Below, piece after piece: positions 1 to 35,227 of a stretch of DNA of 35,227 nt (within the stretch, counting starts at the first letter, position 1; each line of letters begins with the position of its first letter). The notes beneath the pieces were generated by a model. That model was not told the DNA's origin and did no database searches. It was given only the letters and a program-made list of their open reading frames with translations. Position numbers and translations under genes: made by a program. Source of the stretch: a virus; the IMG/VR virus record IMGVR_UViG_3300001450_000119, positions 1-35,227 of that record, one strand, 5' to 3'.

Positions 1-233
1 ATGTCAATTATTTTGTATAACTTAGCTGCATATTTATATGTTATGTTAAACAGTTAAATAAATATATTGATTAGTTATTTAGTATATTTTATGATAGATA
101 TTCGATAACATATTGATTATCAATGTATTAAGTAGTTAGTAGTTGTATAATACTAGTAAATAGTAGTAGTATTAAGGGTATTAGACTAGCTAGCAAGCTC
201 ACACTCACACTTATAATTACACATATATTGTGC
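1..233. other. AT-rich non-coding left edge
   Basis: No convincing gene is seen on either strand, because all frames are broken by frequent stops. It lies downstream of the minus-strand small gene. Visible structure: a perfect inverted repeat ATTGAT-T-ATCAAT at 112-124, an 8-bp inverted repeat TAATACTA/TAGTATTA (148-155 and 167-174, 11-nt loop), and short TAGTAGT-type repeats at 130-172. No Bacteroidota-type -7 box (TAnnTTTG) was found on the minus strand. The inverted repeats could be regulator binding sites or weak RNA hairpins, but nothing proves either. Confidence 0.5.
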
Positions 234-258
234 AAAAAAGAGAGTATTAATCTCTTTT
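234..258 (-). terminator. Intrinsic terminator of the minus-strand small gene
   Basis: Read on the minus strand, AAAAGAGA (258-251) and TCTCTTTT (243-236) form an 8-bp stem with a 7-nt loop, followed by further T residues down to 234. The loop contains the stop codon of the small minus-strand ORF (plus-strand TTA at 247-249), so stop and terminator coincide. The stem has only two G-C pairs and is therefore weak. Its placement is the best support that the ORF is a real leftward gene. Confidence 0.5.
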
Positions 259-387
259 AGGTAGCTTAGGTACTGATTTAGGCCATTTATCTTTGATGTA
301 TAGGTAGATAAGGTAGGTTGCTGCTGCGAAGAAGAATAGTTTAGCTACGATAAGTAGCACTGATAGGATAAGCATGATGTAGTTCAT
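247..387 (-). CDS. Small single-pass membrane protein, unknown function
   Basis: This is a 46-residue protein read leftward from the ATG at 387. A hydrophobic stretch (about residues 5-31, rich in Leu, Ile, Val, Phe and Ala) is followed by a short basic tail with Lys-Pro repeats (KWPKSVPKLPKRD). That pattern fits one transmembrane helix with a cytoplasmic positive end. The frame stays open upstream to a TTG at 462 (71 residues), but that start would lie inside a GC-rich hairpin region, so I prefer ATG 387. It is the only leftward gene in the window and has its own terminator. A holin-like or membrane-modifying role is possible, but size and topology are the only hints. No minus-strand -7 promoter box was recognised upstream. 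Confidence 0.4.
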   Translation of the reverse strand: MNYIMLILSVLLIVAKLFFFAAATYLIYLYIKDKWPKSVPKLPKRD

Positions 388-429
388 AGTAGTATAGTAT
401 TGATTAATAGTTATTAGTAATGTAAACAG

Positions 430-512
430 GAAGGAGGAACGACGCTCCCCTAGGGTGTTCAAAGTTTTCGAAACAGGACGGGGAGGTTTGCTATATCGTA
501 TCCCTCTCTCAT
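430..512. promoter_or_regulatory. GC-rich foldable island in the divergent intergenic region
   Basis: This stretch is clearly richer in G and C than its AT-rich flanks. It holds CTCCCC (445-450) complementary to GGGGAG (480-485), the 8-bp palindrome CCCTAGGG (448-455), an inner hairpin GTTT-TCG-AAAC (464-474), and competing partners GGAG/CTCC (434-448) and GAGG/CCTC (483-506). It sits upstream of the rightward promoter at 553 and would be the leader of the leftward small gene if transcription starts near 510-550. A structured leader, a DNA-binding site or a packaging/replication signal would all fit. Confidence 0.4.
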
Positions 513-552
513 AACTAAATAGAATTTATAAAAAAAATATAAAAATTTTTTA

Positions 553-923: not shown

Positions 924-933
924 AATATAAGAT

Positions 934-3648
934 ATGGCGACATACAGAGAAATGATAGAGATGATAGGTAAGTTTAAACAAGTACCTGAAATATTAGCGA
1001 ATCCTGATTTAGCTTATAGAGATGATATATATAACCATGGGGGACGTCACCCTAAGTATTATGGTGGAGGTAGAGTTCCTAAGTATACATCTGGAGGTGG
1101 ATTTGGTGCTGGTCAAGCAATTCAAGGAAAAGGTGGTGTAGGTAGTGGTTATGTAAGTCCTTATTCACAAAACATGGGAGAAGGCACTGTTTTATCAGGA
1201 GTTGCGGGTGGACTAACTGATGATTATGGAAATTTACTATCAGGTTCAGGTGCAGGTCCTGGATACCAAGGATTAACTCCTTATGAAGGAGGTTCAGTAA
1301 TGGCTCATGAATTAATCAATCCAAGAGTAAGCTCTTTTAATGATGGAGGACGATTAGGAGAAGTAGCATCCGAAGTACCAGTATTTCCTGACGCTCCAGG
1401 AATGAATAAAGAAGGATATCAAACTGAAATACCCCAAATTAACCCTCACGTTTCTGATGACTCATATCAAAGTTTTTCTGCTCAATTAAAACTTGGTGAA
1501 AATGCAGCAAATAAAGGATATGATGCAGATAAAGAGTTGTGGTTTCCTTTTGATGTAGGCATTAATAAAGAACGGAATATTGGATGGGGTATTAATATGT
1601 CTACGTTTTCTGAAGAAGAAAAATTAAGAATATCTCAAGGTGTAACAAGTGAAGAGATAGAAGAAATGTTTAATAATAGAATATCAAAACATTTAGACAA
1701 ATCAAAAGAAAAGATTACAGAAATGGGGGGTGACTGGGATACATTACCAGATAATGTAAAATTAGCATTGACAGATTTTTCTTATAATTTAGGTAGTTTA
1801 AAAAAGTTTCCTAAATTTACACAAGCTGTTATTGATAATGACTTAGAAACAGCAAAAAAAGAATATAAAAGATATTATAAAGATAAAGGGGTAAAGAAAG
1901 AAATGACAAAGAGAAACGAGGATATAGTTAAGATGTTATTTCAAGACGCTAAGGGTGATGGAAAGATTTACAAGAAGGGAGGAACGTATGTGACGACCAC
2001 TCAAGACAAAAACCAAAAATTGACTCCTTCGGAGTCTAAAATGACGAACCCTTATACGAATCCAGAATCTGAATTAAAAAATACATTATCAAAATCTTTT
2101 AGTAAAGGAGGTAAGTTTAATACAGGAGGTACAGTAAAAAAAAACTCTACTGATGAAGATGAGGTAGAAGCAAAATCAAATTATTCAAAATCAGCGAGTT
2201 CTAGAAATAGAGGAGCTTTTCCAAGAATGTCAAATGAAAGTATTACAAATGGTAATGTTAATGAATCTACTTTTCTAGCTATATCTATGGCTCAATATTA
2301 TGGATGGACAGGAGAAATAAATATGACTAGTGGTCAAAGAGGAGGTAAAGACCAAACAAGAGTGTATAGTACATATCAAAGAGAAGATGCTGGAGTATAT
2401 AGAAGATATCCTGAATATCAACAATCAATAGCAGATTCTTTAGGAGTTTCTTTATATGACTATAAAAATAATAATGTAACTGAAGATGAATGGGATAATC
2501 AAGATACAGATGCGATTAGTGGATGGATTGATGATATTTGGGCAAAAGTACAGTCTGGAGAAATGAATATGGAAGAAGCTGGTAAGTTATATCCTATGCA
2601 CCATATGGAAGGAGCAGCAGGTGATTTTACTGGAGGGTTTAAAAACTGGTTAAATAGTAGTAAAAGTAAACAGTTTAGAGAAGATTTTAATATAGAAGTA
2701 TTAGATGAGAGTGACCATTTTCATGTTACCTTTGGACAGAATATAAATATGGAAAGTCTTCCAGAAAAATATCATGCTGATTATTTAACACATAAAAACC
2801 AATTCTCTCAACTTTCTATAGATAGTCCAGATGTAGCAGGAACTAGAATTATAAATATGAATCCTCTTTCTTATCAAGGAGAACAGCGTGGTGTATTAAC
2901 TAATGACCAAGTAAGTATTAAACCACAAGAGGTTACTTTAGGAACCGATGGACCTCCTACTGAATTATCAAAAGCAACTCCACCTCCAGGATTTCAGGCG
3001 TATCAAGAATATCGTGATGAAGCTACAAAGAAACAACAAAAAACTACTGGATATCAATTAGCTGAAACCTTTGGATACATGGATAAATACAATCCTCAAA
3101 ATCCTATCTTAAGTTATGATGAATGGTTAAATGAAAATCCTGAACATCAAGAATATCAAGAACAAAATTCCACAGAAGGAAGTGAGACTGTAAGAGTAGG
3201 AGACCATGGAGTTCCTTTTAATGAAAGTGAAGACCAACCAATTGATAATATATTAAATCCAGAAGGAGTTATTGAAGAAGATTTTTCACAAGGTACTAAT
3301 CCATATGGTTTTGGAGAAAGCGGAAATTGGATTGAAGACATGATGAATAGACTCAATATAACAAGAGAAGAAGCAGAAGCAATTATAGAAAAACAAAGAA
3401 CCAATCCTAATAACCCTAATAACTTTCCTGAATTTACTCCACCTGAACAAGAACCTTTTGACCCTGGATATCCAGCACCAACTGACCCTTATAACCCAGT
3501 ACCAAGAACACCTACACCTGGACCTTGGGAGACTTTACCTGACCCTGGACAACCATCAAAAGAACCAGAATGGTTTAGTCTTTTTAATGTAGGAGTAAAT
3601 AATAAAGTAAAAGATATAAATAAAATGATAAATCCTTATGGTGGATAA
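934..3648 (+). CDS. Bifunctional cell-wall lysin: GH24 muramidase plus M15-type peptidase
   Basis: A 904-residue protein with two predicted peptidoglycan-cutting domains. Residues about 181-340 resemble T4-type (GH24) lysozyme: candidate catalytic E189 in LKLGEN, D207, IGWGIN (216-221) in place of TIGYGH, and the helix DFSYNLG (281-287); the usual Thr of TIGYGH is Asn215. Residues about 425-605 look like a zinc D,D- or L,D-peptidase of the M15/VanY type: SGQRG (466-470), H557-M-E-G-A-A-G-D564 (HxxGxAxD), and E592-S-D-H595-F-H597. The N-terminus (33-60) is Gly-rich, linkers carry repeated GG motifs (YKKGGT, FSKGGK, FNTGGT), and the tail (820-880) is Pro-rich. Together the enzymes would cut glycan strands and stem peptides. 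No signal peptide is visible. The length and linkers favour a virion-associated lysin, but an endolysin is possible. Confidence 0.8.
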   Translation: MATYREMIEMIGKFKQVPEILANPDLAYRDDIYNHGGRHPKYYGGGRVPKYTSGGGFGAGQAIQGKGGVGSGYVSPYSQNMGEGTVLSGVAGGLTDDYGNLLSGSGAGPGYQGLTPYEGGSVMAHELINPRVSSFNDGGRLGEVASEVPVFPDAPGMNKEGYQTEIPQINPHVSDDSYQSFSAQLKLGENAANKGYDADKELWFPFDVGINKERNIGWGINMSTFSEEEKLRISQGVTSEEIEEMFNNRISKHLDKSKEKITEMGGDWDTLPDNVKLALTDFSYNLGSLKKFPKFTQAVIDNDLETAKKEYKRYYKDKGVKKEMTKRNEDIVKMLFQDAKGDGKIYKKGGTYVTTTQDKNQKLTPSESKMTNPYTNPESELKNTLSKSFSKGGKFNTGGTVKKNSTDEDEVEAKSNYSKSASSRNRGAFPRMSNESITNGNVNESTFLAISMAQYYGWTGEINMTSGQRGGKDQTRVYSTYQREDAGVYRRYPEYQQSIADSLGVSLYDYKNNNVTEDEWDNQDTDAISGWIDDIWAKVQSGEMNMEEAGKLYPMHHMEGAAGDFTGGFKNWLNSSKSKQFREDFNIEVLDESDHFHVTFGQNINMESLPEKYHADYLTHKNQFSQLSIDSPDVAGTRIINMNPLSYQGEQRGVLTNDQVSIKPQEVTLGTDGPPTELSKATPPPGFQAYQEYRDEATKKQQKTTGYQLAETFGYMDKYNPQNPILSYDEWLNENPEHQEYQEQNSTEGSETVRVGDHGVPFNESEDQPIDNILNPEGVIEEDFSQGTNPYGFGESGNWIEDMMNRLNITREEAEAIIEKQRTNPNNPNNFPEFTPPEQEPFDPGYPAPTDPYNPVPRTPTPGPWETLPDPGQPSKEPEWFSLFNVGVNNKVKDINKMINPYGG

Positions 3649-4560: not shown

Positions 4561-4850
4561 TGAGAAATAGTATAAGAAAACCTATTGGTAAAAAAAACAA
4601 ACCTATACAAGCTAATCGTAAAGGAAAAAATGAAAAAGATAAGAAAAAAAATAATCTTATTTATTTAAAATCAAGATATAGTTTACATTATAAAAAAGCA
4701 AATTGGGAAAGAGCGGAAGAATATAACCAATATAGTATAACTCATTATAATACTAATTTAAGAGATTGGATGGATAAAAAGGAAGTAAGTAAAATGATGA
4801 ATAAAAATGTATTTGGATTTGACAAACCTAAAAAGATAAAATATGGGTAA
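4560..4850 (+). CDS. Small basic hypothetical protein overlapping terL
   Basis: A 96-residue protein with a strongly basic first third (Lys/Arg/Asn-rich, residues 1-38) and an aromatic, helical second part (YSLHYKKANWERAEEYNQY). It starts on the last base of the preceding stop and its own end overlaps the terL start by 8 nt, so it is embedded in a coupled run of genes. The basic tail suggests contact with DNA or the motor. No family was recognised; it is another small-terminase or motor-accessory candidate. Confidence 0.65.
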   Translation: MRNSIRKPIGKKNKPIQANRKGKNEKDKKKNNLIYLKSRYSLHYKKANWERAEEYNQYSITHYNTNLRDWMDKKEVSKMMNKNVFGFDKPKKIKYG

Positions 4851-6657
4851 GATAAAATTTGACCCACAAAGATACAGACCAATACCTAATAAAGGATTTC
4901 CTGATTTAGAAGAAGGTTCTGTATCGTATCAAGAATGGTGGACAGAACAACAGGAAAGATGTATAGACGGTTTTAAACCTAAAGGCATGCCTAAGATTTC
5001 TGGTAAGTATTATTTTTATCTAAATTTTTATTATATTCTGGGTAACAGTGGGGAGAAAGGAGGTCGTAAATCTTTAATACATCCGTGGTATAGAGAAATG
5101 GATAGAGAATATTTTAACCTATTTGAAACATGTAAAGAAGAAGGAAAGGGAATGATTGTTATTAAAGCGAGGGATAAGGGATTTTCTTATATGAACTCTG
5201 GTATGGTTGCTCACGAATATACATTCTTTCCTTACAACGATATAGGTGTTGCCGCTGGGTTACAAGCTACTGCAGACGCTTTCTTTGATAAAACTAAAAA
5301 AGGTCTAAATGGGATACACCCTAATTTTAAACATTCAGTATTAAAAGATACAGATGGTATATTACGTTCAGGTTACAAACAAAAAAACAGGGATGGTAAG
5401 TGGGAAATTGGTGGATATCAATCTACAATTATATGTAGAACAATGGATAATCCAGAAGTATTTAAAGGAGAAAGAACGTCTTTAATGATATTTGAAGAAG
5501 CTGGAGAATTTAAACATCTCAAAAATGCTTACATGTCATCTAAAGCATGTTTTATGGATGGTGATATCCAATTTGGAGTTCCTATTGTTGGGGGTACAGG
5601 TGGTGATATTTCTAGAGCTTCTAAAGATTTTATGGATATGTATTATAGTCATGATGCATATAACCTTATACCTATGTTTATTCCCGCTTCAAAAGCTTAT
5701 TATGGTTTCTTTGATATAGAGACAGGTATAGAAGATGTTTCTGGAGCTAAAGATAAGCTAACAGAAGACAGGGAGATTATTAGAAAGTCTGGAGATAATG
5801 AAGCATATAATTTACATATACAAAATTATCCTTTAACTATAGAAGAGGCATTTCTTAATACAAAAGAAAGTAGATTTGATATATCTTTATTAAATGCTCA
5901 AAGGTCAAGAATACTTGGAAGTAAGGATTATAAAAATCAAATACAGTCTGGATATTTAGATTGGGCATTAAATGACGACCAAGAATTAAAGGTTTTATGG
6001 AGGCCTCATCCCGCTGGACCTTTTAAAGTTTTATCACATCCAATGCCAGAATTTAAAGGAATTGACATAGGAGGAGTGGATTCTTACGACCAAGATGAAG
6101 CAGGAGCGTCAGATTCCTTGGGTAGTGCAATAATTTATCGTAGATTTGCAAATACAAATATTCCAAGCGATTACGTTGTTGCTGAATATACTGATAGGCC
6201 TAAGAAAAAAGAAGATTTTTGGGATGGGTGTTTGAAATTGGCCGTATACTATAACGCTAAAATGTTAGTAGAGTATACAAAGATAGGTATATTAGATTAC
6301 TTTAAACGTATGAATGCTTTAAAGTATTTGAAAGAAAAACCAGAATCTGCTCATAACCCAGGTTCTAGAACAAGAAATCAATATGGCGTTCACATGAATA
6401 AACAAGTGAAAGCTTTATTAGAAGACTTGATAGATGATTATATTAGAGAGAATATCAAAGAGATTTGGTTTTTGGATTTAATAGATGAGTTGGCAAATTA
6501 CGGATTAAAAAATACTGACCGAGCTATGGCTTTTGGTATATGTTTAATTCACAATATAGATAATTACAGAATGAGAGTACAAGAAGAAAAAATAGAAGAT
6601 ATAGGTCTAAAATATTATAAAAGAAGTATCAATGGTACCCCAATTAAATTAAATTAA
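4843..6657 (+). CDS. terL: Terminase large subunit (ATPase-nuclease packaging motor)
   Basis: A 604-residue motor that pumps DNA into the procapsid through the portal and cuts it. ATPase half: a divergent Walker A region KARDKGFSY (108-116), Walker B LMIFEEAGEF (214-223) with E218/E219, and a coupling motif GGTGGD (250-255). RNase H-like nuclease half: D408 in KGIDIGG, E477 in MLVEYTK, and D559 in KNTDRA, a plausible metal-binding triad. The Walker A stretch lacks the classical GK[S/T] order, having KG-FS instead. It ends one base before the portal gene. Length and domain order are normal for crAss-like terminases. Confidence 0.92.
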   Translation: MGKIKFDPQRYRPIPNKGFPDLEEGSVSYQEWWTEQQERCIDGFKPKGMPKISGKYYFYLNFYYILGNSGEKGGRKSLIHPWYREMDREYFNLFETCKEEGKGMIVIKARDKGFSYMNSGMVAHEYTFFPYNDIGVAAGLQATADAFFDKTKKGLNGIHPNFKHSVLKDTDGILRSGYKQKNRDGKWEIGGYQSTIICRTMDNPEVFKGERTSLMIFEEAGEFKHLKNAYMSSKACFMDGDIQFGVPIVGGTGGDISRASKDFMDMYYSHDAYNLIPMFIPASKAYYGFFDIETGIEDVSGAKDKLTEDREIIRKSGDNEAYNLHIQNYPLTIEEAFLNTKESRFDISLLNAQRSRILGSKDYKNQIQSGYLDWALNDDQELKVLWRPHPAGPFKVLSHPMPEFKGIDIGGVDSYDQDEAGASDSLGSAIIYRRFANTNIPSDYVVAEYTDRPKKKEDFWDGCLKLAVYYNAKMLVEYTKIGILDYFKRMNALKYLKEKPESAHNPGSRTRNQYGVHMNKQVKALLEDLIDDYIRENIKEIWFLDLIDELANYGLKNTDRAMAFGICLIHNIDNYRMRVQEEKIEDIGLKYYKRSINGTPIKLN

Positions 6658-6658: not shown

Positions 6659-8953
6659 ATGAGTAAAAAAACAACTGCCTTTCCATCAATGATGGTTTCA
6701 GAAAAAGAAAAAAATATAGAATGGTGCGAAAGTGTATTAGATTCTATTGTTGGATATATGTCTAATGATGGTAGCACGTATTCATCGTCAAGAGAAAAAG
6801 ATATTGTAAATTATTCTATCTATAATGGTAATATAAATCAAGAGGACTACTCATACATAACAGAACAATATGGACTGTCATATCCAGCTAGATTAGTAAA
6901 CTATCCAATCATTACTCCTAAAATTGATTTACTTATAGGAGAAGATTTAAAAAGACCTATAGACATGAAAGTTTCTACTGTTAATAAAGAAGCTGTCGTA
7001 AGAAAGCTAGACCATAAAATCTCTATACAAATGAAATCTTTATTAGAGGAAATTCATTCAGAATTTGAAGAAAATTACGGAGCTCCTATAACTGACGAAG
7101 GGCAGGGAATGCCAGTTCCAGATGATATAGCTGTATATATGAAATACAATTATAGAGAAATGATAGAGGAAAATGCTCAAGATGGACTAGAGTATGTGTT
7201 AAATAGATATAATTTGAAAGATAAATTTAAAGAAGGGTTTAGAGACTTATTAGTAACAGGCAAAGAGTTTTTTAAAGTTGATGTAGTAAATGGAGACCCT
7301 CACGCTCGTAGAGTAGACCCACGTTCTGTTATATATGATACTTCTGTACATTCTGATTATTTAGATGACGCCGCTTGGGTGGGAGAAGAAAGATGGTTGT
7401 CCGTTAATGAAATTAATGATGAATTTAAAGAATGGCTAACTAAAGAAGATTTAGAAGAGTTAGATTCTATGAGAAATGCATTTGGTTCTGATGTAGGAGG
7501 ATATAACGATAGTTTTTTATGGCTGGATGCTGGATATGGTAAAGAAACTCGTATTCGTGTAGTATCAGCGGAATGGAAATCATTAAGAGCTATTAAATTT
7601 AAATTATCTCCTAATAGATATGACCCTGACAGACCATTTAGAAAAATGGTAAAAGACACATATAGAAAAAGAAAAGGAGAAGTTGTAGAAACAAAATGGG
7701 TGGATGATATATGGGAAGCTACTAAAATTGGAGGAAAAATTACTGTTAAAGCAAAAAGAAGAGATAATCAAGTTAGAAGTGTAGACGACCCAGGAAAAAC
7801 ACCTTTATCATATATTGGATGTATAAAAGGAAATACTACAGGACAATCTACTTCTATAGTAGATTTATTACATAACGTACAAATGTTATACAATATTGTG
7901 GTTTACCAAATAGAATTAGCTATGGCTCGTTCAGGTGGTAAAGCTGTGGTTTATGATACATCGCAAATACCTACAAATGTAGGAATGGATATGCAAACAG
8001 TATTGTACCATTTAAAAACAGATGGTATTATACCTATTAATTCAAAAGATGAAGGTGGTCAAGTAGCTTCATTTAATCAATTTCAACAAGTTGACTTCAC
8101 TTTATCTCAGTCTGTTCAACAGTTAATTAACCTTAAAGTCATGTTAGAAGATATGGCTGGTCAACTTTCTGGAGTAACAAGACAAAGAGAAGGAGCGGTT
8201 GAACAATATGAATATGTAGGTAACGTACAAAGAAGTGTCGTTCAATCTTCTACTATTACTGAATCTTGGTTTTATTCTCATGCGGAAGTTAAACAAAGAG
8301 TTTTAGAAAGTTTGTGTAATACTATGAAAATTGCTTGGGCTGGAGGTAAAAAAGCTGCAATGATATTAGGAGATGGAGCTTATAAAACTCTAAATATAAT
8401 GCCAAGTATCGCTTTACAAGATTTTGGAGTTTACGTAGGAGATGCTGGAAAAGATGACGCAATGAAACAAGTGGTAGGACAATTAGCTCAATCCGCATTA
8501 CAAGCTGGAAGTATTGATTTATTAAATATATTAAAAGTTCTAAAATCTGATACTATGACTGAAGCTGAACATGTTTTAGAAAAAGGTATGGAGAAAATGA
8601 AAGAACAAGCTGCAGAACAACAACAAAGAGAAATGCAACAAATACAAGCTCAACAAGAAGCTGAACAAGCTAAATTTCAAGCTGAAGCTCAACTTAAGCA
8701 AATGGATAATGACACTAAAATACAAGTTGCAGAAATTCAAGCTGAATCTAGAATGGCTGTTGCTTCATTACAATCAGAAGATAAAAGAGATATACACGAT
8801 TCATCACAAGATGCTGAGTTTAATAAGAAATTAGCAGACCACGAATTAAGTAAAGATTCTGGAAAAAAAGAAGAAAGAAAAAATACTTATACTGGTGAAT
8901 CAGAAACAACTATGGAGGATAAAGTTAGAGCAAAGGAAAAGATTTCAAAATAA
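6659..8953 (+). CDS. Portal protein
   Basis: A 764-residue protein expected to form the dodecameric DNA gate at the capsid vertex and bind TerL and the ring proteins. Supporting points: its place directly after terL, its size, and the N-terminal segment ITPKIDLLIGEDLKRPIDM (near residues 84-102), which matches the LxGExxKRP pattern I associate with Bacteroidota phage portals. A helical hairpin region follows (QSVQQLINLKVMLEDMAGQLSGVTRQREG), then a long Gln/Glu/Ala-rich coiled coil (about 640-715) that may form the barrel extending into the capsid. It ends 4 nt before the -7 box that serves the next gene. Confidence 0.88.
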   Translation: MSKKTTAFPSMMVSEKEKNIEWCESVLDSIVGYMSNDGSTYSSSREKDIVNYSIYNGNINQEDYSYITEQYGLSYPARLVNYPIITPKIDLLIGEDLKRPIDMKVSTVNKEAVVRKLDHKISIQMKSLLEEIHSEFEENYGAPITDEGQGMPVPDDIAVYMKYNYREMIEENAQDGLEYVLNRYNLKDKFKEGFRDLLVTGKEFFKVDVVNGDPHARRVDPRSVIYDTSVHSDYLDDAAWVGEERWLSVNEINDEFKEWLTKEDLEELDSMRNAFGSDVGGYNDSFLWLDAGYGKETRIRVVSAEWKSLRAIKFKLSPNRYDPDRPFRKMVKDTYRKRKGEVVETKWVDDIWEATKIGGKITVKAKRRDNQVRSVDDPGKTPLSYIGCIKGNTTGQSTSIVDLLHNVQMLYNIVVYQIELAMARSGGKAVVYDTSQIPTNVGMDMQTVLYHLKTDGIIPINSKDEGGQVASFNQFQQVDFTLSQSVQQLINLKVMLEDMAGQLSGVTRQREGAVEQYEYVGNVQRSVVQSSTITESWFYSHAEVKQRVLESLCNTMKIAWAGGKKAAMILGDGAYKTLNIMPSIALQDFGVYVGDAGKDDAMKQVVGQLAQSALQAGSIDLLNILKVLKSDTMTEAEHVLEKGMEKMKEQAAEQQQREMQQIQAQQEAEQAKFQAEAQLKQMDNDTKIQVAEIQAESRMAVASLQSEDKRDIHDSSQDAEFNKKLADHELSKDSGKKEERKNTYTGESETTMEDKVRAKEKISK

Positions 8954-10050: not shown

Positions 10051-11529
10051 ATGGCAACAATTGCTACGGGTACGTATGGTAATGGAACAACGGCTGCAAA
10101 TGCTTTAAATGCAAACTTGTTACAATATCCAGAAATTGCTAAAACTTTAATATCTCTTTACCCAAGATATTCTATGACATATCTTCTAGAACATACTAGA
10201 AGACATGCTTCTGAAATGGTTTTAGGTGATAGTTCTTACGAATGGAAAGTAATGAATAGACTATCAAGAAAATGTTTAATAGATGCAACAGGTACTGGTG
10301 GAGCTGTAGCTGCTGGTGCGACAGATACATTTGAGTTTGAAAATGTTACATCTGGTGGTGCGGAAGATTGGTTCAATTTATATGATGTAGTTAGATTCTC
10401 TGATGGAGCTACTGGTTTAGTAGTTGCTCATGATGGTTCTCTTACATATACAATTGAAATGATTTCAGCTTTATCAGCTGCTGCTAATACAGTTGGACAA
10501 GTAACTGGTAGAATAGGTTCTGCATTCCCTGTAGGTTCTTCTGGTGCTGATGTTGGAGAAAACAACATGTATCCAGATACTTATAAAAACTGGATGACTA
10601 TCAACAGAAAGAAATGTACAATCACTGGTAAAGATGCCACTGATGTTTCTTGGGTTGAAAACAATGGTCAATCACTTTGGTACTTCACTAAAGAGCAACA
10701 CATGATGGACCAATTTATGTATGAGCAAGAATTACAAAGATGGTATGGTGAAACTTCTGTATCTTCTGCTGCTACTTCTTATGCTGCTACAAACACTGAT
10801 ATTATTAATTCTATCGTTGCTGGAGAATATGCTGATGGTTCAGCAAGACCTGCAGTTGCAGTTGGTGATGGTGCTCACACTATTGGTGATGGTGTATTAG
10901 CTCAGATTAGTTCATCTAATCAAGCTACATATACTGCTGGTTCATTAACAGAAGATATCATTACTGAGTTTATTGGAAAAATTTCTCTTAATTCACAAAC
11001 AGCTGAAGGTAACCATTGGGTTGTGTTCACTGGAACTGAAGGAAGAATTGCTTTCCATAGAGCTATGAAAGACCTTATTGTTGCTCCTGCTGGTGCAATG
11101 ACAGGTGGTTCAATGAAAGATATCAAAGCTGGTTCTGATGTTGAACTAGGAGGTAACTTTACTTCGTACAATGCTTTAGGAAATAAAATTACTATTGCTT
11201 ATTGTCCAGTATTTGATGACCCACATATGCATGGTGCGTCTGGAGGTACAAATTCATTTGGAGACACTAGATTAAAAGAGTCTTTCAAAATGGTATTTAT
11301 GGACTTCGGTTCTACATCTGGAGTTTCTAATGTAGAATTAATTACAAAAGGTGCTGCTGGTATTAATCGTTCACTAGTTAAGAAATATGTTGGAGGTATG
11401 GTAAATCCTTACGATACTAAAGGCATGATGGCTCAAAACGGTGATGATAGATTCCAATGTCACGTTTTATCTGAATCAGGTATTATTGTTAGAAACCCAC
11501 TATCTTGTGGTATTCTTTCAGCTGCCTAA
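10051..11529 (+). CDS. Major capsid protein (HK97-fold, crAss-like type)
   Basis: A 492-residue protein that should form the icosahedral shell. The N-terminus (LLQYPEIAKTLISLYPRY, about residues 24-41) and the C-terminal part (FKMVFMDFG, about 412-420, and KKYVGGMVNPYDTKG, about 446-460) follow the pattern I associate with crAss-like capsid proteins. A beta-rich, Gly/Ala/Thr-rich insertion (80-170) precedes a core segment with aromatic helices (WYFTKEQHMMDQFMYEQEL). Position after the scaffold-like gene, an A-run before the ATG and a very stable UUCG hairpin after the stop all suit a highly expressed structural gene. There is no obvious protease-cleaved delta domain within the ORF. Confidence 0.88.
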   Translation: MATIATGTYGNGTTAANALNANLLQYPEIAKTLISLYPRYSMTYLLEHTRRHASEMVLGDSSYEWKVMNRLSRKCLIDATGTGGAVAAGATDTFEFENVTSGGAEDWFNLYDVVRFSDGATGLVVAHDGSLTYTIEMISALSAAANTVGQVTGRIGSAFPVGSSGADVGENNMYPDTYKNWMTINRKKCTITGKDATDVSWVENNGQSLWYFTKEQHMMDQFMYEQELQRWYGETSVSSAATSYAATNTDIINSIVAGEYADGSARPAVAVGDGAHTIGDGVLAQISSSNQATYTAGSLTEDIITEFIGKISLNSQTAEGNHWVVFTGTEGRIAFHRAMKDLIVAPAGAMTGGSMKDIKAGSDVELGGNFTSYNALGNKITIAYCPVFDDPHMHGASGGTNSFGDTRLKESFKMVFMDFGSTSGVSNVELITKGAAGINRSLVKKYVGGMVNPYDTKGMMAQNGDDRFQCHVLSESGIIVRNPLSCGILSAA

Positions 11530-22585: not shown

Positions 22586-23832
22586 TGCCAAATTACTTAG
22601 ACTTAATGAACCAAATGCAGGATTCTCGTAGAGCTTCTCTAGCTGAATACAATCCTGATAACCCATACGGAGCTTCATCATACACTTATCAATCCGCTGA
22701 TGATATTTATAATCAATCTCAAGGAGAAGCTTATAGCCAAGAAATAGCAGACGATTACATACCTTCTAGTATGTACACGCCTCCTACATCAGAAGAAAAA
22801 ATGGTAAAAGGAATTTCTAATGTTTCTACAGCTAGTACATTAAATACTCAACTTGCACCTACATTAGGTAAGGTAGGAAGCAAATATCTAACTAGCAACG
22901 CTGCAGTAATGGAGAAAGCTGGGTTAACAAATGTATCAGCAACAGTAGCAAATCCAGCTTATACAGATTGGGTTGCTGCTGGTAGTACAGGAACAGCTCC
23001 TGCAATGACAATACCAAATCCAACTGCAGGAGCAGGACCAATTGCTGGTGTGGGAGCAGCAGGATATGGTACAATAGGAGCTGTAGCTTATGCGATGGCT
23101 AATGATAATAATCCTTATACATATGATACAGGAGAAGCAATAGGAATGGGAATTGGAGATGCAGCAACCGCCACTGGAGTTTCAATGGCTTTAGGAGTTT
23201 ACGCTCCTTGGGTACCAATTGCAGCAGCTGCTATAGGATGGTTCTTTAGAAGTAAAAAATCAAAAAAACTAAAGAAGAAAGAGAAAGAAATCCAACATAC
23301 CTCAGATAAAAGTGTACAAAACTTATATAGTCAAAATATGATAGGAGAAAGAAAGAAAAGAGACTATTATCAATCATCAAGATATCGTGAACAAGGTAAT
23401 CTACCGTATGGACAAGGATACGGCAATCAAGCTGCTCATGGTATGAGATATAAATTTAATACAGGAGGTAAAAATATAGGTGCAATTCAAGCTGAATTTA
23501 CAGGTAATGAATTAATTGTAAATAATCAAAATATAGTAGAAGCTGGATTAAAAGAAAAAAATTACGCAAAAGCAGCTGCTCCTATAAGAGAGTCTATAAG
23601 AAAAGGAACTATAACTCCTGGACCAGAAACACACAAGAACAATCCTATGCCTGTTACATCTGAAGGAGTTATATATGCAGCAGGAGGAGCTTTACCGTTT
23701 ACAGTAAGTGATGGAGCAGGTATATATGACCACGCTTCTGACCAATTCAAATCTACAATGACAGATAAACAAATCGCTATGACAGCTCAGAAAAACATCA
23801 ATAAGTGGAAATCTAATAATATGTATGCATAA
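22585..23832 (+). CDS. Putative virion protein with membrane-type segments
   Basis: A 415-residue protein. Residues about 145-172 (Gly/Ala-rich, VGAAGYGTIGAVAYAM) and 199-221 (MALGVYAPWVPIAAAAIGWFF) are hydrophobic and could span or insert into membrane, followed by a very basic stretch (RSKKSKKLKKKEKE, 222-235). The C-terminal ~125 residues are a distinct domain opened by FNTGGK (291-296) and containing AEFTGNELIVNNQNIVEAG and VIYAAGGALPFTV. The GG motifs recur in the lysin at 934 and the 111-residue protein. It stands at the head of the cargo block, with its own promoter in the preceding gene, and is coupled by TAATG at both ends. A role in DNA ejection or membrane penetration is inferred. 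Confidence 0.6.
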   Translation: MPNYLDLMNQMQDSRRASLAEYNPDNPYGASSYTYQSADDIYNQSQGEAYSQEIADDYIPSSMYTPPTSEEKMVKGISNVSTASTLNTQLAPTLGKVGSKYLTSNAAVMEKAGLTNVSATVANPAYTDWVAAGSTGTAPAMTIPNPTAGAGPIAGVGAAGYGTIGAVAYAMANDNNPYTYDTGEAIGMGIGDAATATGVSMALGVYAPWVPIAAAAIGWFFRSKKSKKLKKKEKEIQHTSDKSVQNLYSQNMIGERKKRDYYQSSRYREQGNLPYGQGYGNQAAHGMRYKFNTGGKNIGAIQAEFTGNELIVNNQNIVEAGLKEKNYAKAAAPIRESIRKGTITPGPETHKNNPMPVTSEGVIYAAGGALPFTVSDGAGIYDHASDQFKSTMTDKQIAMTAQKNINKWKSNNMYA

Positions 23833-26800
23833 TGGCAAACGGAGACCCAAAAGAATTTAGAAAAACTATAGACGCTGAAGCTAAAAGAGCTGGACTCAAT
23901 GATGAGCAAATAAAACTTTTATATATACTTAATGGTATTGAAAGTAAAAGTGGTACAGCTTCAGAAAAAAGTTATAAAAATACTACCGCAGCTCGAATAA
24001 GAAAAGTTTTCGGCTCAGGTTCAAGAATAGCTAAACTATCAGATGAAGAAATAAACGAACTAAAAAAAGATGATGAAGCATTTTTTAATTTTGTATATAA
24101 AGGAAGGATAGGAAATACAGATGAAGGAGATGGATATAAGTATAGAGGAAGAGGAGGAGTGCAATTAACAGGAAGGTCGAACTACGAGAATATTACAAAA
24201 ATATTAAATAAAAATGGTATAGATATTGATTTAGTAGCTAATCCAGAATTAGCTGCAGACCCAAGATACTCAGCGTCTATTTTAATTGCTTTTTCTGAAC
24301 ATAGAGGTATGTTTGACCCTAATCATAAAAGATATATAAGTCCAGAGGATATTGAAGCTATTAAAAATGGAGATATAGAGGCAATAGATAAATTACATGA
24401 AATAACAAATCCAGGAGCTCCAAACGAGCGTCTTCAAAAACAAGCGGCAATAGTATATGAAAACACTGATGGAGAATATGATATTTCAGATGGTTCTGAA
24501 GGTAATGAAATATTAACGAACTTAGGAAGAACAGACACCAAAACAGCACCTCCACTTCAATATAAAGTCCAAATTGGTGTATGGAAAGGTCATACTGTTC
24601 CAGCAGAAAAACAAAAACTAATTAATAGCTTAAGAGAAGATGAAGGATATACAGTAATAAAAGAACATCTTAGAGGAAAATTATATAAATATAGTGTTTA
24701 TAAGACAGACGATGGGATACTTACAGGAAAACAATCAGCAGACAAACTTACAGAAGAACTTGTAGGTTTAGGATTCCCAAATTCTTTCGTTTACGCTGAA
24801 AAAGACGGAGTAAGAATAGAAATGGAAGAAGCTAAAAAAATAGAAAAAGAAAAAGAAAAGAGCCCTTACAATATGCCTCCTACAGAAACTAATCCTACAC
24901 CAGAAATGTTAGAAGCTTCTCCTAAATATAGTTCTGCTGAAGAAATAAAAAAGGATTATGATAATGGAGTTATTAAAAGTGGAGATATTGTAAATCTTGA
25001 TGGATATCATTATCAAATAGAGGAAAGTGATGGAACAGGATTAATAACACCCTATAGAGAAAGTGACAATACATTTAATGGAGGAGAAGGAGGAACTCTA
25101 TCGATTGATGATTATATAGATAGAATAAAAGAAGATGAAAAATTACAAAAAGAAGTTAGAGAAGAAGAAAATAGAAAGAAAAAAGAAAAAGAAAGAAAAG
25201 AAGAACTTTCTGGAGGTGATATTTATGGAGTTGTAACAGACACAGAAACAGGAGCTATAATACCAAATGCTAAAGTAACTATAACAGACCAAGATGGAAA
25301 CACGCAAGTAGTTATAGCAGACGAGAATGGTTCTTATACTGTAGAAAAAGTAGACACTAATAAAAATTATACTATTTCCATAAAAAATGATGCAGGTGAA
25401 GAATTGTATAAAACCGAGGTAAATAGTGAAGATTTTGTAGATGGTAATGTTATTAGAGATTTAAATGTAGAAGACGTAGTGGAAGAGGAAGTAGAAGATG
25501 TGGTAGAATTAAAAACATCTACTTTATCAACAGAAGAACAAGATATTTTAGATAATTATAGTATAGACGGAACTGTAGGAGAAGGTAAGGCAGAAATAAA
25601 AGATTCTACTGGAAAAACTATAGCTTATTTAGAAGGAAATAAATTAATTGGTAAAAAAACTATACCAATTATAGGAGAACAAACTTTTGAAATAGGAGAA
25701 TATGTAGATAATGGAGATGGCACATATACATTTAAAGAAGGTAAAGACTATAATACAGTTATGTCGGCAGCTTCTTCAGAAGAGAAAAAAGTCATAGAAA
25801 CATTTAGAAAAGCTGCTGAAGATAATCCACAATTCGCTCAAGATATTATAAATACAACAGAAGGAAATGATACTAATATGTCTGGAGATGATTTAAAAAC
25901 ATCTGCTACTACATTTACACCTTCATCAGAAGAAGAAGAGGTAGTAGTAGAAGAAATAATAGAAGAGAAACCAACAACCACAGAAGTAGAGGTTTATAAT
26001 CCTAATACAGAAAAAACAGAAACTATAACAGTGCCAATTGATGATAATGGAGCTGTAACAGAATATCCAGAAAATGTAGAGTATGATGAAGATAATGATA
26101 GATACGTTTATAAATCAACGGAGATAGATTATGAAAACATAGAGTATCAAGATGTTCACTATCTTGATGATGAATCAACTGTAAAAGCAAAAATATTAAA
26201 CAATAATCCTGAGCATGCAAACGACCCAGATAAATTAGAAGAACTATATAAAGAGGAGTTAGAAAGCCAAGAATGGACAAGAGAAGAAATAGAAGAACTA
26301 ACAGAGAGACAACAATATATAGACCAGATATTCGCTGAAAATCCAGAACTAGCTGAAAAATATAAAGATATTCCTATAGAAGATTATCAGATAACAGATG
26401 GATTTTACGAAGAAATATATGACCGTATGTATGAGTTAGAGGAGGAAGATTTTGAAGTACAAAGGCGAGCAAATAAAGTAGAGACAGGAGTATTTGAAAC
26501 AAATCAAGAAAGAGAAGATAGAGAACGTGATTCAATTAGGGTTAATGAATTAAACGAAAGAAAGAATAATAATACAATCACATCAGAAGAACAAACTGAA
26601 CTTTCTGAAATAATAAGCAATTATGGAGGATGGGACCCCAATGAATTATACGAAGAAAATAAAACTAACCAATCAGAAAGAGACGCTAATATAGAAGCTG
26701 GTAAAGGAGATTTTACAAACAGTGAGATACAAGACCAAGAATATGAAGAAGAAGAGTTAGATTATGAAAGAGAAGATAATTTTAAAATAACTGGAATAAA

Positions 26801-28826
26801 AGAAACTAACTCAGAAAAATCTGATAGAATTGAAAGTGAAAAAATTGCTAATGAAGAAAAAGGTTTAGGTAGAATTACAGACGTTCAAGCAGAAGACCAA
26901 AATGTTATATGGAGTACTCCTGATTCAGAAAAGAAATTAAGAAATGATTTAAAAGATTCACTTAATACTCAAGAAAGTCAAATAAGAGCTGCTGCTGGAG
27001 ATGATGAAAAGATAGCGGAACTAGAAGAGCAAGCAGAAACAACAAGATTAGCTTTAGAATATTTAGAATTAAAAAACAAGCATGGTAGAAAAGATGATGT
27101 ATTTGATATAAAAACATTTAAAGAGGCTCTAGAAAATAATGATACACAGCAACTTAGTATGTTTTATAATGACCAGAGAACAGAAGCTATAGGTAAATTA
27201 GAAAAAGATAGACAAAGTATTGAAGACGGAACCTTTGAAGGTAGTGAAGAAGAAAGAGATAAAATATTAACCACACTTGAAACATTAAAAGAGTCTAAGC
27301 AAAAAAGTGAGTTACCAACTGAATACACTGATAGATTTGGAGAGATAAAAGGTACTGAAAGATTAAAATGGGACAAAAAAGGAAAAGCTTATGTAGGACA
27401 CGGAGACATAACAGGAGACTCAAGAACATCTAGAGAACTAGTATATCTTACTAATATTGACGCTGATGATAAGCAAATAAGCCAACTAAACGCTTTATTA
27501 AAAGACAGGGAATATATAGAGGAAGGAAATAAGAATAATTTAGCAGTTATAGCAAACGCACAAAACGACCTAGCAAATTCTGGTATTACTACAGTAGAAC
27601 CTGTAGGAGGACTTTCAGGTTCAGGATTTGCGAGGGTAATTGATTGGAATACTGGAACATCCTATTATGTGGACAGTGATTGGTTATATGCAGATGTGGG
27701 TACACGAGCAATAAATTTAGAAAAGAAAGAAAAAAAAGGTTCAATTACATTAGAGGAAGCTGAAGAACTAAAAGGGTTAAGACAAAATGCACCTTATCTA
27801 CGTATACAAGGACAAGTAAACAAAACAGCAGGACTATTAAGCAATGTCAAAAGTGGAACTCACGGACATCCAAAAGGAGTTCATTCTCGTTATAATAGTA
27901 TAAAAGAAGTAGATGAATTTATACTTAGCAGAAAAAAACAAATATTTAAAACAGGAGCTAATCCTGATGTTAATTTATCTGCAGAACAAATTGCTTTATT
28001 TGATGAAATAAACGACCCTGATTTTGATAATTCTTTGTTAGAACAAAAATTAAACGAAATAGTATCTTATAGTCCAGAAGCATTTGAATATGATTTAACA
28101 AAAGAACCTGAAACAACAAATGAAGAAACTAGAAGTCAGGGTCCTACAGGACAAGATATATTACAAGGAACAATTGATGTTGCTACAGGAATTATGGATT
28201 CATTTGGAGGTCCAGATGCTTTAATTAACGCTGTAATGGGAAAGAAAGCTTTAGCAGCAGCTATGAAAGATGTTACTCCTATGCAACAAGCTAAATTAAG
28301 TCCTATGTTTCACGAACATTTAAGAGAAACAAAAGAGTTATCTAAAAGAGGATATCATCCATCAGAAGAACTTAAAATAAGAAGAGGAATAGACACAGCT
28401 TACCAACAAGGATTAGAAAATACTGTAAGAGGAACAGCTGGAGATAGAGCTAAGTTTTTAGCTGCTTCAGGAATATTTGACGCAAAAAGAAGTTTAGCTT
28501 TATTAGAAGTATCTGCTCAAGACGCTGCTCTACAAAGGGAGAATAAAAAAGCATACACTGAATTATTAACTTATAAAGAAAACTTTGACGCTGCGCAACA
28601 GGAAGCTAAAAGAACAGAAAATCTACAAATGCAATTAGCAAACAAAAAAGCTGCTTCTGAGTTTGCTGGGCTTACGTTCGCAAACGCTTTATCAGGAATG
28701 GGTGGTAATTCTTCTCTTATAGACCAATTAAAAGGAATGATGATGAATAATTATACAAAAAATAATGGATTCAAATTAACCAGTGAATACGAAGAGAATC
28801 CACCAACAAACGAAACCGAAGAATAA
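23832..28826 (+). CDS. Giant cargo-like protein with GH19 lysozyme and SPOR-like domain
   Basis: A 1664-residue multidomain protein. Residues about 8-215 match GH19-type lysozyme/chitinase: candidate acids E37 (NGIES) and E45 (SEKSY), the diagnostic YRGRGGVQLTGRSNY (104-118), and the helix ANPELAADPRYSASILIAF. Residues about 242-325 read as a SPOR-like peptidoglycan-binding repeat (YKVQIGVWKG ... KYSVYKTDDG ... GFPNSFVYAEKDG). Residues about 462-545 resemble a carboxypeptidase regulatory-like beta domain (GVVTDTETGAIIPNAKVTI ... DENGSYTVEKV). A long Glu/Lys-rich helical middle follows, and the C-terminal ~180 residues are an Ala-rich helical core (TAYQQGLENTVRGTAGDRA). The wall enzyme is thus fused to what looks like an internal virion protein that would act during genome entry. 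It overlaps both neighbours by one base. Confidence 0.75.
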   Translation: MANGDPKEFRKTIDAEAKRAGLNDEQIKLLYILNGIESKSGTASEKSYKNTTAARIRKVFGSGSRIAKLSDEEINELKKDDEAFFNFVYKGRIGNTDEGDGYKYRGRGGVQLTGRSNYENITKILNKNGIDIDLVANPELAADPRYSASILIAFSEHRGMFDPNHKRYISPEDIEAIKNGDIEAIDKLHEITNPGAPNERLQKQAAIVYENTDGEYDISDGSEGNEILTNLGRTDTKTAPPLQYKVQIGVWKGHTVPAEKQKLINSLREDEGYTVIKEHLRGKLYKYSVYKTDDGILTGKQSADKLTEELVGLGFPNSFVYAEKDGVRIEMEEAKKIEKEKEKSPYNMPPTETNPTPEMLEASPKYSSAEEIKKDYDNGVIKSGDIVNLDGYHYQIEESDGTGLITPYRESDNTFNGGEGGTLSIDDYIDRIKEDEKLQKEVREEENRKKKEKERKEELSGGDIYGVVTDTETGAIIPNAKVTITDQDGNTQVVIADENGSYTVEKVDTNKNYTISIKNDAGEELYKTEVNSEDFVDGNVIRDLNVEDVVEEEVEDVVELKTSTLSTEEQDILDNYSIDGTVGEGKAEIKDSTGKTIAYLEGNKLIGKKTIPIIGEQTFEIGEYVDNGDGTYTFKEGKDYNTVMSAASSEEKKVIETFRKAAEDNPQFAQDIINTTEGNDTNMSGDDLKTSATTFTPSSEEEEVVVEEIIEEKPTTTEVEVYNPNTEKTETITVPIDDNGAVTEYPENVEYDEDNDRYVYKSTEIDYENIEYQDVHYLDDESTVKAKILNNNPEHANDPDKLEELYKEELESQEWTREEIEELTERQQYIDQIFAENPELAEKYKDIPIEDYQITDGFYEEIYDRMYELEEEDFEVQRRANKVETGVFETNQEREDRERDSIRVNELNERKNNNTITSEEQTELSEIISNYGGWDPNELYEENKTNQSERDANIEAGKGDFTNSEIQDQEYEEEELDYEREDNFKITGIKETNSEKSDRIESEKIANEEKGLGRITDVQAEDQNVIWSTPDSEKKLRNDLKDSLNTQESQIRAAAGDDEKIAELEEQAETTRLALEYLELKNKHGRKDDVFDIKTFKEALENNDTQQLSMFYNDQRTEAIGKLEKDRQSIEDGTFEGSEEERDKILTTLETLKESKQKSELPTEYTDRFGEIKGTERLKWDKKGKAYVGHGDITGDSRTSRELVYLTNIDADDKQISQLNALLKDREYIEEGNKNNLAVIANAQNDLANSGITTVEPVGGLSGSGFARVIDWNTGTSYYVDSDWLYADVGTRAINLEKKEKKGSITLEEAEELKGLRQNAPYLRIQGQVNKTAGLLSNVKSGTHGHPKGVHSRYNSIKEVDEFILSRKKQIFKTGANPDVNLSAEQIALFDEINDPDFDNSLLEQKLNEIVSYSPEAFEYDLTKEPETTNEETRSQGPTGQDILQGTIDVATGIMDSFGGPDALINAVMGKKALAAAMKDVTPMQQAKLSPMFHEHLRETKELSKRGYHPSEELKIRRGIDTAYQQGLENTVRGTAGDRAKFLAASGIFDAKRSLALLEVSAQDAALQRENKKAYTELLTYKENFDAAQQEAKRTENLQMQLANKKAASEFAGLTFANALSGMGGNSSLIDQLKGMMMNNYTKNNGFKLTSEYEENPPTNETEE

Positions 28827-33900: not shown

Positions 33901-35227
33901 GAGACTATGCTGTTTTAGATGAAGATATAAAAAGAGCTAAAAAACCTACTAAAGTAAAAGAGAAAGTAAAACAAGTTAAAGAAAAGATTAAATCTATTTA
34001 TGAAAAAATAAAAACTAAAGTTAAAAAAGAAGACACTAAACCATCTAAAGATAATACATTTGAAAAGTATGATGGAGCTGTACCTAGAAGAAATCACGAA
34101 GTATATACAAACGCTGGATTAGGAGAATATGTAATGTTACAAAGACTAATCAAAAAAGGATTAATACCAGCAGACCAAGCTTATATTTTGAGTGGTCAAC
34201 TTTTAGATTCTTTTGGAAATGAAGCAGTATCATTAGCTATAGGTAGCACATTATTAATATCAGAAGGAGGAACTATAGGTACAGATATTATACATGAAGG
34301 TGGTCATGTATGGTATAGAATGCAAGCTGAATCTCCACTAATTAAAAGAGTAAATAAATTATTAGTTGAATCAGATATATTTGATTTAACATCTATACAA
34401 TATCCTGAACTAACATTAATTGATGTAGGAGGAACTGTTATGACAGTAGGCACATTTGTAGAACTACAAAAAGGTATCATGAATAATAGTAACGAGGTTA
34501 AAAGTGATATTAAAGATATTATAACAAACATTATAAAAAATGAAGGAATAGACGATACTAAAACAGCAGAATTATATGTATCTCTTATTACACAACTTAC
34601 TACAAAAAGAAGAGGAGGAGCTATAGCTAAAAAGTTATCTAACTTAGAACAAAAACATTTATTAGAAGAATCTTTCGTAAGAACATTAGAAGCTAATACT
34701 TATGGTAGTTTAAACTCTATTATAAAAAATAGTAAAGTTCAAAAACAACTAGAAAAAGATTTAGTTAAGTTTTATCAAGAAACTAAGAAACTTGCTACAG
34801 AAGAAGAAGCTAGGGAATTTTTGAATTTAGTAGACGATGTAATACCTACCCTTACACTAGACGCTGCAATGAAACACATACTCTTAAACTTCGGTAAAAA
34901 GGGAACTATAGAAAATTCTGGATACGCTGAAATCAAACAAGCTAAAAAAGCAGCATTTAGAAAAGCTACAGAATATTCATTAGTTCATACATTCTTAAAC
35001 TATGAGTTAGGTAAAGGATTAGAAGACGAACAAATTGCAGATAATGTAATTAAAAGAATAGATAAATCTGGATTAATTAATTCTAAATCTTTAAAACCTA
35101 AACAAAAGGAACAACTAAAACAATACATAAGAGCTGTTTTATATACAACTAATCCTAAGTATAAAAAGAATTTAGCTGGTAGTGATAAATTGTTAATAGA
35201 AGCAATACTTAAAGAAAAAGGTATTGG
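30996..35227 (+). CDS. Giant polyprotein-like cargo protein with zincin motif (incomplete at right edge)
   Basis: The frame stays open from ATG 30996 to the window end, at least 1410 residues with no stop. Residues about 185-225 and 330-400 contain Gly/Ala-rich hydrophobic stretches (FMIPYGGGAFAAGRFASWAV; VGLGGAMGGTRGVV) and the helix EGFTEGVQETYQEW. Residues about 575-690 are a Glu/Lys coiled coil, and 690-730 a Lys/Gly amphipathic stretch (AIKGGVKKGAELGKKGVQAV). Residues about 1050-1240 hold a zincin-like metallopeptidase: TDIIHEGGHVWY with H1100-E1101-x-x-H1104, and a possible third ligand at E1224/E1225 in LLEESFVRTLEA. This resembles peptidase domains of phage polyvalent proteins. In crAss-like phages such giant ORFs may continue into a virion RNA polymerase, but no RNAP motif is inside this window. 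Confidence 0.75.
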   Translation, partial: MADKVEGYDLPTILNENLMAPEDAVKGYDKSMPTSSDIFNSMLAPTQQEVSQERDVDDYFKSAAQRESRENLTQGLTEPMRGDVETGSLYMTDPDAVMGDATSDFGRAIRAGWGDLVYGTGDTIDFVSALVNPNDPDPNTAVGDWLKKKGEEFQNENLLIISEDLQDVTWADMFKAEMWTHKVARLIPYAASFMIPYGGGAFAAGRFASWAVKGLKVSKMGRMVSTTHKGSKVSKLLYGTNVVGGSGITKHLAIDAGKQGVILTKGAETVSKAIGGGLAANTFEGFYLGGETYNQAIKDGLTKEQAASAASGVVWDNSKWAAVDIVQYGLLFGGLGKTMNINRVARLTPQPMAFSASVGGVIKPLIQRGLINLPTAGVYAGIEGFTEGVQETYQEWIKYANLQEEKGLGYDSYSNYLTEADGTFTAEARDIFWTSVGLGGAMGGTRGVVDGIAERQKMLDEKIEKTEQLRLLSEDGSYSEESLRDFQNLSDELVADHIWNYNGDGSNMKSVIEQQVKDGKLTEEGMEGVFQTIDRMVENYEKHSVNTTLTESGAKQVFYRENRLTRNTSQQEQVKGIFEEKRKKVKENVSKEKQQSKLNDLNMEEKATLEELEKEENQLRNEIENFYLQKEEVMTKKGEVDKRYKSRLTSDEMEKYTQKGEKRMNAKEAKEAGMSIEEYREYKKKEEGKGFLSKAFDAIKGGVKKGAELGKKGVQAVSSAAKKGVESVQELRGKDIIESAKKLTKKNVVEAVDRTERILKKSKTAQQIRKAFTEFKKKMKGMSGVSVETYKKAEEYLKGKQDGTITESYTEWANKQGESKKKAVTEKKQVKLPEEPKSEEVRKKIPIKEKVKKLAEAIVKKGGELIVKATSIVPTSGGNSYMITDSKGSTIKFYNQKGKVGNQTIDNFLAKYINQDSVDVKIKLILPQEGQENVVNIDGQLFFQFNNNLYQYKMVAEVDGNVIGTIEYRDYAVLDEDIKRAKKPTKVKEKVKQVKEKIKSIYEKIKTKVKKEDTKPSKDNTFEKYDGAVPRRNHEVYTNAGLGEYVMLQRLIKKGLIPADQAYILSGQLLDSFGNEAVSLAIGSTLLISEGGTIGTDIIHEGGHVWYRMQAESPLIKRVNKLLVESDIFDLTSIQYPELTLIDVGGTVMTVGTFVELQKGIMNNSNEVKSDIKDIITNIIKNEGIDDTKTAELYVSLITQLTTKRRGGAIAKKLSNLEQKHLLEESFVRTLEANTYGSLNSIIKNSKVQKQLEKDLVKFYQETKKLATEEEAREFLNLVDDVIPTLTLDAAMKHILLNFGKKGTIENSGYAEIKQAKKAAFRKATEYSLVHTFLNYELGKGLEDEQIADNVIKRIDKSGLINSKSLKPKQKEQLKQYIRAVLYTTNPKYKKNLAGSDKLLIEAILKEKGI

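Follow-up and report, generated by a model that had tools for sequence, protein, structure and literature searches.

What has removed every GATC from a stretch of viral DNA in which close to 100 of them would be expected? The window analysed here, a linear virus record taken over its whole length of 35,227 bases, contains none, on either strand, the word being a palindrome. The expected number is 96.8 from base composition, 94.5 under a first-order Markov model and 94.9 under a second-order model, so that both the complete absence of the word and the roughly 100 sites predicted by chance, as claimed in the original prediction made from the letters alone, are borne out by the counts. With site elimination defined as an observed/expected ratio below 0.1 and at least 15 expected sites, the window is a clear case (0 vs. 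94.5).

The loss was also evaluated against synonymous shuffling of codons within each of 22 CDS (34,161 coding bases, 500 runs), with both the proteins and their codon usage preserved. The shuffled sequences contained 95.4 ± 6.6 GATC, with a minimum of 76 in the 500 runs. Codon choice itself bears the imprint of the avoidance, in the form originally described for aspartate and for Gly-Ser and Arg-Ser pairs. Aspartate before a codon beginning with C is written GAC 71 times and never GAT, whereas elsewhere GAT (561) prevails over GAC (128); serine after codons ending in GA is always AGY (26) and never TCN; and isoleucine after a codon ending in G is ATA (42) or ATT (29), never ATC. The claim that a single palindrome had been lost holds for GATC, but not for GATC as the sole missing word: the window contains no CCGG (8 to 21 expected, depending on the model) and only six TCGA (22 to 97 expected, depending on the model), and other palindromes have disappeared from its relatives.

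Judged from its predicted genes, the window represents the structural module of a crAss-like phage of marine origin, encoding a terminase large subunit (TerL), a portal, a capsid and large virion proteins (Table 1). The combination of a crAss-type TerL and portal that characterizes Crassvirales is present (phrog_6681 and phrog_6547), and the TerL displayed 27.6–30.5% identity in 20 of 203 matching database records, many of which are named crAss-like phages. No tRNA genes were found in the window, and a megablast search of its first 25 kb against named phages gave no match. Gut crAss-like phages typically have genomes of about 97 kb; the four longest sister contigs among those listed are all 65–67 kb, in linear and perhaps incomplete records, which hints at a smaller crAss-like lineage.

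Table 1. Predicted features of the 35,227-base window
Feature	Coordinates	Strand	Best match
904-aa protein with a weak internal phage-lysozyme domain	934..3648		PF00959, E 1e-4
Terminase large subunit (TerL), crAss-like	4843..6657	+	phrog_6681, E 5.6e-94
Portal protein	6659..8953	+	phrog_6547, E 1e-120
Major capsid protein	10051..11529	+	phrog_11589, E 3.1e-25
Large virion structural protein, 1,981 aa	16640..22585	+	phrog_28748, E 1.1e-51
1,664-aa protein, endolysin-like N-terminal part	23832..28826	+	phrog_181, E 2.9e-23, residues 50-155

The TerL was used as the query for collecting relatives from IMG/VR and as the basis of a phylogenetic tree. Among the best 80 of 363 relatives, 19 with 88–98% identity contained a single GATC in total, and 61 with 80–84% identity contained GATC near the expected number. 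In the tree (81 rows), the GATC-free sequences formed a single clade of 20 rows, with an SH-aLRT value of 100, and one state change accounted for their distribution. In this clade (hereafter referred to as clade A), ten contigs totalling 402,550 bases contained one GATC, for about 1,095 expected, although these expected sites are not all independent because the contigs overlap in kind (near-identical methyltransferases are found in L140 of G006 and L139 of G033, and in L147 of G007 and L145 of G034). Seven sister-clade contigs (clade B; TerL about 80–83% identical; 423,870 bases) contained 1,169 GATC, for 1,000 expected. The loss is clade-wide, and the sister clade lies at about the expected level. 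Composition and protein sequence are excluded as its source by the shuffles together with this GATC-normal sister clade of like composition. An assembly or sampling artefact was ruled out by the co-occurrence of a GATC-free clade A contig and GATC-normal sister contigs in three metagenomes (IMG 3300001450, 3300030329 and 3300025168). The tree is unrooted, but a loss in clade A is the simpler reading of the direction of change, because GATC occurs at normal levels across clade B and over the first 50 kb of a cultured crAss-like phage.

The two clades differ in other words too. TCGA was reduced to 103 of 630 expected sites in clade A and was completely absent from clade B (0 of 568; loci L098–L116 and L415–L420), whereas AACGTT was depleted in clade A (8 of 73; L082–L097, L215–L220 and the window) and normal in clade B (73 of 72). 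GAATTC was found 3 times for 134 expected in clade A and 18 times for 125 in clade B. CCGG was almost absent from both (1 of 169 and 2 of 178, respectively), and its loss was perhaps an older event common to the family comprising the two clades. Up to nine proteins of the window were aligned with those of seven clade B contigs, giving 193 places, not independent of one another, at which clade B has GATC; the window retains none of them. At aligned places for other palindromes, it retains 11–29% (GTAC 24/152, CATG 34/117, AGCT 91/332, TGCA 34/280 and CTAG 16/145). Both residues are unchanged at 92 of the 193 lost GATC places, where the usual replacements are GACC (51), GTTC (17) and GATT (11); the remaining 101 show a residue difference as well.

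GATC elimination is not confined to this lineage. Two further families, S (G027, G028, G030 and G031) and Q (G029), include GATC-free phages whose TerL differs from that of clade A and which share few genes with it; these families were initially identified through carriage of a D12 adenine methyltransferase and then extended by TerL scans. In family S, 22 of 26 close TerL loci were GATC-free and four keep GATC to some degree. In family Q, 41 of 80 TerL loci were GATC-free and 38 were not, one locus being unscored (L314, 2/11), and the tree required at least four GATC state changes among its 79 scored rows. The Q phage G029 (L210–L211) and clade A (L085, G003) share a few genes with 86–95% identity outside the methyltransferase region, and such near-identity suggests recent exchange. 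Other words have also disappeared from these families: CTAG was entirely missing from three Q contigs (0/140, 0/111 and 0/130; L383–L384, L387–L388 and L391–L392), CATG from the S contig G061 (0 vs. 106 expected; L405–L406), and both ACGT and GCGC had counts of zero in several whole contigs. Clade A, unlike S and G029, has not been purged of ACGT.

A set of 38 contigs (1.59 Mb) was assembled from these lineages, with six of the Q contigs (G045 and G052–G056) covered only to base 40,000 and with expected counts varying slightly according to the mode of calculation (one strand first-order, pooled, or both strands). GATC was eliminated from 26 of the 38, a proportion that is not a population rate because contigs were selected for relatedness to the window, for methyltransferase carriage or through the TerL of two carriers; these 26 contigs together contained two GATC. 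At the thresholds given above, 86 of 522 word-contig pairs were eliminated for 4-base palindromes, but only 15 of 4,527 for all other 4-mers. The loss is therefore almost limited to the class of words read by most type II enzymes. The 15 non-palindromic pairs involve CCAG, CCCG, ACGG, CCGC and CGTC, all in S and Q contigs, and may reflect asymmetric recognition sites; CCAG was found 4 times for 149 expected in G061 and 5 times for 140 in G062 (L405–L408), and CCCG 0 or 1 times in seven Q contigs. An excess of AGCT (1.39–1.86 times the number expected at first order in the listed contigs of clade A, G027–G031, G064, G065 and G029) proved to be mostly a trinucleotide effect, with ratios of 0.96–1.34 under the second-order model.

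The original prediction reported no methyltransferase gene, and this is correct for the window but not for the clade. A D12 adenine methyltransferase gene (in G003 at positions 1370-2188) lies next to a gene for a 427-aa protein in four of seven clade A contigs, which are all those including this neighbour; the other three also lack the 427-aa gene, and the locus is thus not covered in them. The D12 gene was absent from all 12 clade B contigs, the 427-aa neighbour being present in four of five B contigs compared. The enzyme belongs to the D12 family (PF02086, E 3.8e-19), but two phage copies scored 50.9 and 61.1 bits with the curated Dam model TIGR00571, below its cut-off of 114.85. It is 21–24% identical to D12 enzymes whose genes adjoin that of DpnII, and the FNVPIGSYKKP stretch of two such enzymes from Flavobacteriales was missing from the phage enzyme, on comparison by eye. 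A 109-aa protein (P0002) is encoded beside the D12 gene (L085:1370-2514), in clade A only among the loci compared; it matched no known family, and its candidacy as a GATC nuclease was rejected.

Carriage of the D12 gene was associated with the GATC-free state. The gene was carried by 11 of 26 GATC-free contigs and by none of the 12 GATC-bearing ones; in a separate set of S and Q contigs, with the state scored at the TerL locus region and not always over the whole contig, the corresponding numbers were 2 of 20 and 0 of 15. Many carriers were GATC-free, and a methyltransferase tree of 80 rows showed only three state changes, but carriers with normal GATC also exist. The gene was lacking in 18 of the 20 GATC-free S and Q contigs, several of 35–42 kb, and in the GATC-free G064 and G065 it was missing at its locus, with both flanking genes present. 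The phage methyltransferase was therefore rejected as a candidate and is probably not the cause of the loss, for which it is unnecessary. No gene separated GATC-free from GATC-bearing contigs (blastp, 1e-3, incomplete contigs): the best was present in 12 of 26 GATC-free contigs and none of the 12 GATC-bearing ones, and the gene found most often occurred in 22 of 26 and 11 of 12, respectively.

The hosts are probably marine Flavobacteriia. Flavobacterium and Cellulophaga phages are among the nearest cultured TerL relatives of family Q, and Croceibacter, Chryseobacterium and Cellulophaga phages among those of family S. The highest-ranking S match is a sewage phage with no host given (vB_RanS_PJN03), and lower-ranked matches to the S TerL include phages that infect many other hosts. 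A TerL scan of bacterial genomes identified no relative. Among the matches listed, the cellular enzymes closest to the phage methyltransferase (59–63% identity) are encoded in Flavobacteriales MAGs. In five MAGs (L117 and L121–L124), the D12 gene is solitary and occupies a conserved chromosomal place between a gene for an exported protein (by eye) and a pseudouridine-synthase gene; no endonuclease was recognized beside it. In five MAGs carrying the chromosomal gene, GATC counts were 0.4 to 1.1 times those expected over the sequence covered. An 18,547-base contig filed under a Nanoarchaeota MAG (L120) encodes a methyltransferase identical to that of an IMG/VR phage contig, also of 18,547 bases (L175), and is probably a misbinned phage.

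The proposed check of candidate hosts revealed GATC enzyme genes in the likely host order, but in a minority of genomes. Among 395 Flavobacteriales genomes, PF02976 matched in 10, with frames of 417–481 aa, the size of Sau3AI, nine having two matched stretches; a C5 methyltransferase gene adjoined the PF02976 gene in both neighbourhoods examined, as in Sau3AI systems. The DpnII family exceeded its cut-off in four genomes, two matches being strong and both beside a D12 gene, one also with a second methyltransferase, and the DpnI family did so in seven. In one locus (L426:967-4029), genes for a C5 methyltransferase, a Sau3AI-type protein (PF02976) and a DpnI-family protein (PF06044, E 5.4e-29) lie in tandem. 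In a genome of 2.0 Mb that encodes a C5 methyltransferase paired with a Sau3AI-type protein, the 100 kb covered contained 86 GATC for 285 expected; the pair is on a 7.7-kb contig that is possibly misbinned.

We consider it very probable that the lineage lost all its GATC through cutting by GATC restriction in its hosts, which we infer to be marine Flavobacteriia; the selective force, the host and the enzyme are inferred, and the mechanism is read from composition only. Such hosts would cleave GATC in unprotected DNA, the simplest candidate being a type II system of the Sau3AI or DpnII kind, and each GATC would have been replaced by another word, often without effect on the protein (commonly GACC, GTTC or GATT), until no target was left. 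Relatives exposed to other enzymes would have purged other palindromes: TCGA in clade B, and CTAG, CATG, ACGT or GCGC elsewhere. Restriction is the best-supported cause because the loss is complete, clade-specific, recurrent in three families and practically limited to palindromes, and because GATC enzymes occur in the likely host order. Counting against it, these enzymes are found in only a small minority of the sampled order, with a PF02976 gene in one genome of the 52-genome family holding the MAGs with phage-like methyltransferases. Moreover, four of the 26 close S loci keep some GATC, and four cultured flavophages, three from among the nearest listed S and Q TerL relatives plus the crAss-like phi14:2, have not been purged of the word (43/47, 56/111, 115/128 and 36/96, two being covered to base 50,000). 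Some of the cultured flavophages lack other words: GGCC was missing or nearly so in 11b (0/30), phi14:2 (0/22) and phi10:1 (1/33), the last two to 50 kb, and CTAG in P2559Y (1/71).

Restriction avoidance, the core of the original prediction, is thus the best-supported reading, but its Dam-linked mismatch-repair variant is unlikely. Selection by methyl-directed mismatch repair, in which MutH nicking at unmethylated GATC would act against the sites, as proposed for enterobacterial phages, appears highly improbable here. MutH is about half the length of the 417–481 aa PF02976 frames, and none of the 10 matching genomes among the 395 had a frame of MutH length; the frames being about twice the size of MutH, this form of selection is unlikely, and it would also leave the loss of TCGA, CTAG, CATG and ACGT in relatives unexplained. 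The precedent in its favour is phiX174, which lacks GATC and in which restored sites lower the mutation rate, according to the excerpted text of PMC5014478. It is likewise unlikely, though less so, that GATC was methylated by the host or by the phage D12 enzyme and that a DpnI-like or type IV enzyme then cut Gm6ATC, in which case sites would disappear even though such an enzyme leaves unmethylated DNA intact. DpnI-family genes are indeed present in the seven Flavobacteriales genomes mentioned above, clade A carries a D12 adenine methyltransferase, and all 46 phages of hosts with Type IIM GATC enzymes are GATC-depleted in the excerpts of PMC6286503, the authors of which nevertheless suppose that this avoidance stems mainly from orthodox type II systems. 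The phage enzyme itself fits this role poorly, given its scores below the Dam cut-off, its lack of the FNVPIGSYKKP stretch and the absence of its gene from the locus in the GATC-free G064 and G065.

A phage-encoded weapon, a GATC nuclease or methyltransferase directed against GATC-bearing host or competitor DNA by a phage that is itself site-free, would account for the pairing of the D12 gene with the unassigned 109-aa gene in clade A and for the way in which the D12 gene tracks the GATC-free state in both contig sets and in the 80-row tree. We nevertheless regard it as scarcely credible, given the carriers with normal GATC, the lack of any gene separating the two states, and the GATC-free contigs, G064 and G065 among them, without the D12 gene. 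A different GATC-reading host defence, such as phosphorothioate-based (Dnd-type) restriction, would be compatible with the rarity of type II GATC genes in the sampled Flavobacteriales, and phosphorothioation at GATC in archaea is mentioned in the excerpts of PMC7230728. As each of the other eliminated palindromes would need an agent of its own, we judge this defence improbable as the selecting agent.

If type II restriction is the cause, the set of missing palindromes may register which restriction enzymes uncultured hosts possess, and we suggest tentatively that clade A, family S and G029 infect the same streamlined marine Flavobacteriales. Despite their unrelated TerL, these phages have purged overlapping words (GATC, CCGG and, mostly, TCGA), and this overlap, together with a methyltransferase that moves horizontally and the genes shared by G029 and clade A, would be explained by common hosts. 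The sets are not identical, however, as illustrated by ACGT. Were this reading true, switches of set between close relatives would mark host jumps or turnover of host enzymes. The on/off difference can be mapped on trees, with several independent switches, providing access to the rate at which about 100 sites can be purged; it also raises the questions of whether phages of different families that infect one host lose identical words, and of whether the restriction enzymes of a host seen only in metagenomes could be predicted from the words that are missing.

A search of the open-access literature retrieved no paper titled on GATC loss in marine crAss-like phages; two papers on crAss isolates matched "GATC" owing to a company (GATC Biotech) and a service bearing the name. 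Several known systems offer points of comparison. The window shares with phiX174 the complete absence of GATC, but phiX174 is a small coliphage in which this absence has been linked to methyl-directed mismatch repair (PMC5014478, in excerpt), and no MutH was found among the Flavobacteriales genomes sampled. The Cellulophaga phage phi14:2 (Crassvirales, Steigviridae), with a known flavobacterial host, is likewise a marine crAss-like phage without CCGG (0 vs. 11 expected in its first 50 kb), but over the same stretch it has 115 GATC for 128 expected and lacks GGCC (0 vs. 22). The haloviruses of the HF1 group resemble clade A in combining the absence of GATC with a methyltransferase gene; seven isolates are wholly devoid of GATC and CTAG, a feature ascribed to host defences; most members encode an N6 methyltransferase that, according to the authors, must target another motif (PMC7230728, in the text available). 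Those viruses are archaeal myoviruses, whereas the phages described here are marine, probably infect Flavobacteriia, and include close GATC-free and GATC-normal clades with differing sets of missing palindromes. The phenomenon and the threshold are those of the "site elimination" described in the available sections of PMC6286503 (CB below 0.1; 3.9% of the dataset, or 7.5% of cases by another count), in which the commonly avoided sites are those of orthodox type II systems. There, phages were matched with sequenced hosts; here, the switch is placed on a tree, and what is new with respect to an already known process lies in how sharply close relatives differ and in the recurrence of the loss in three families.
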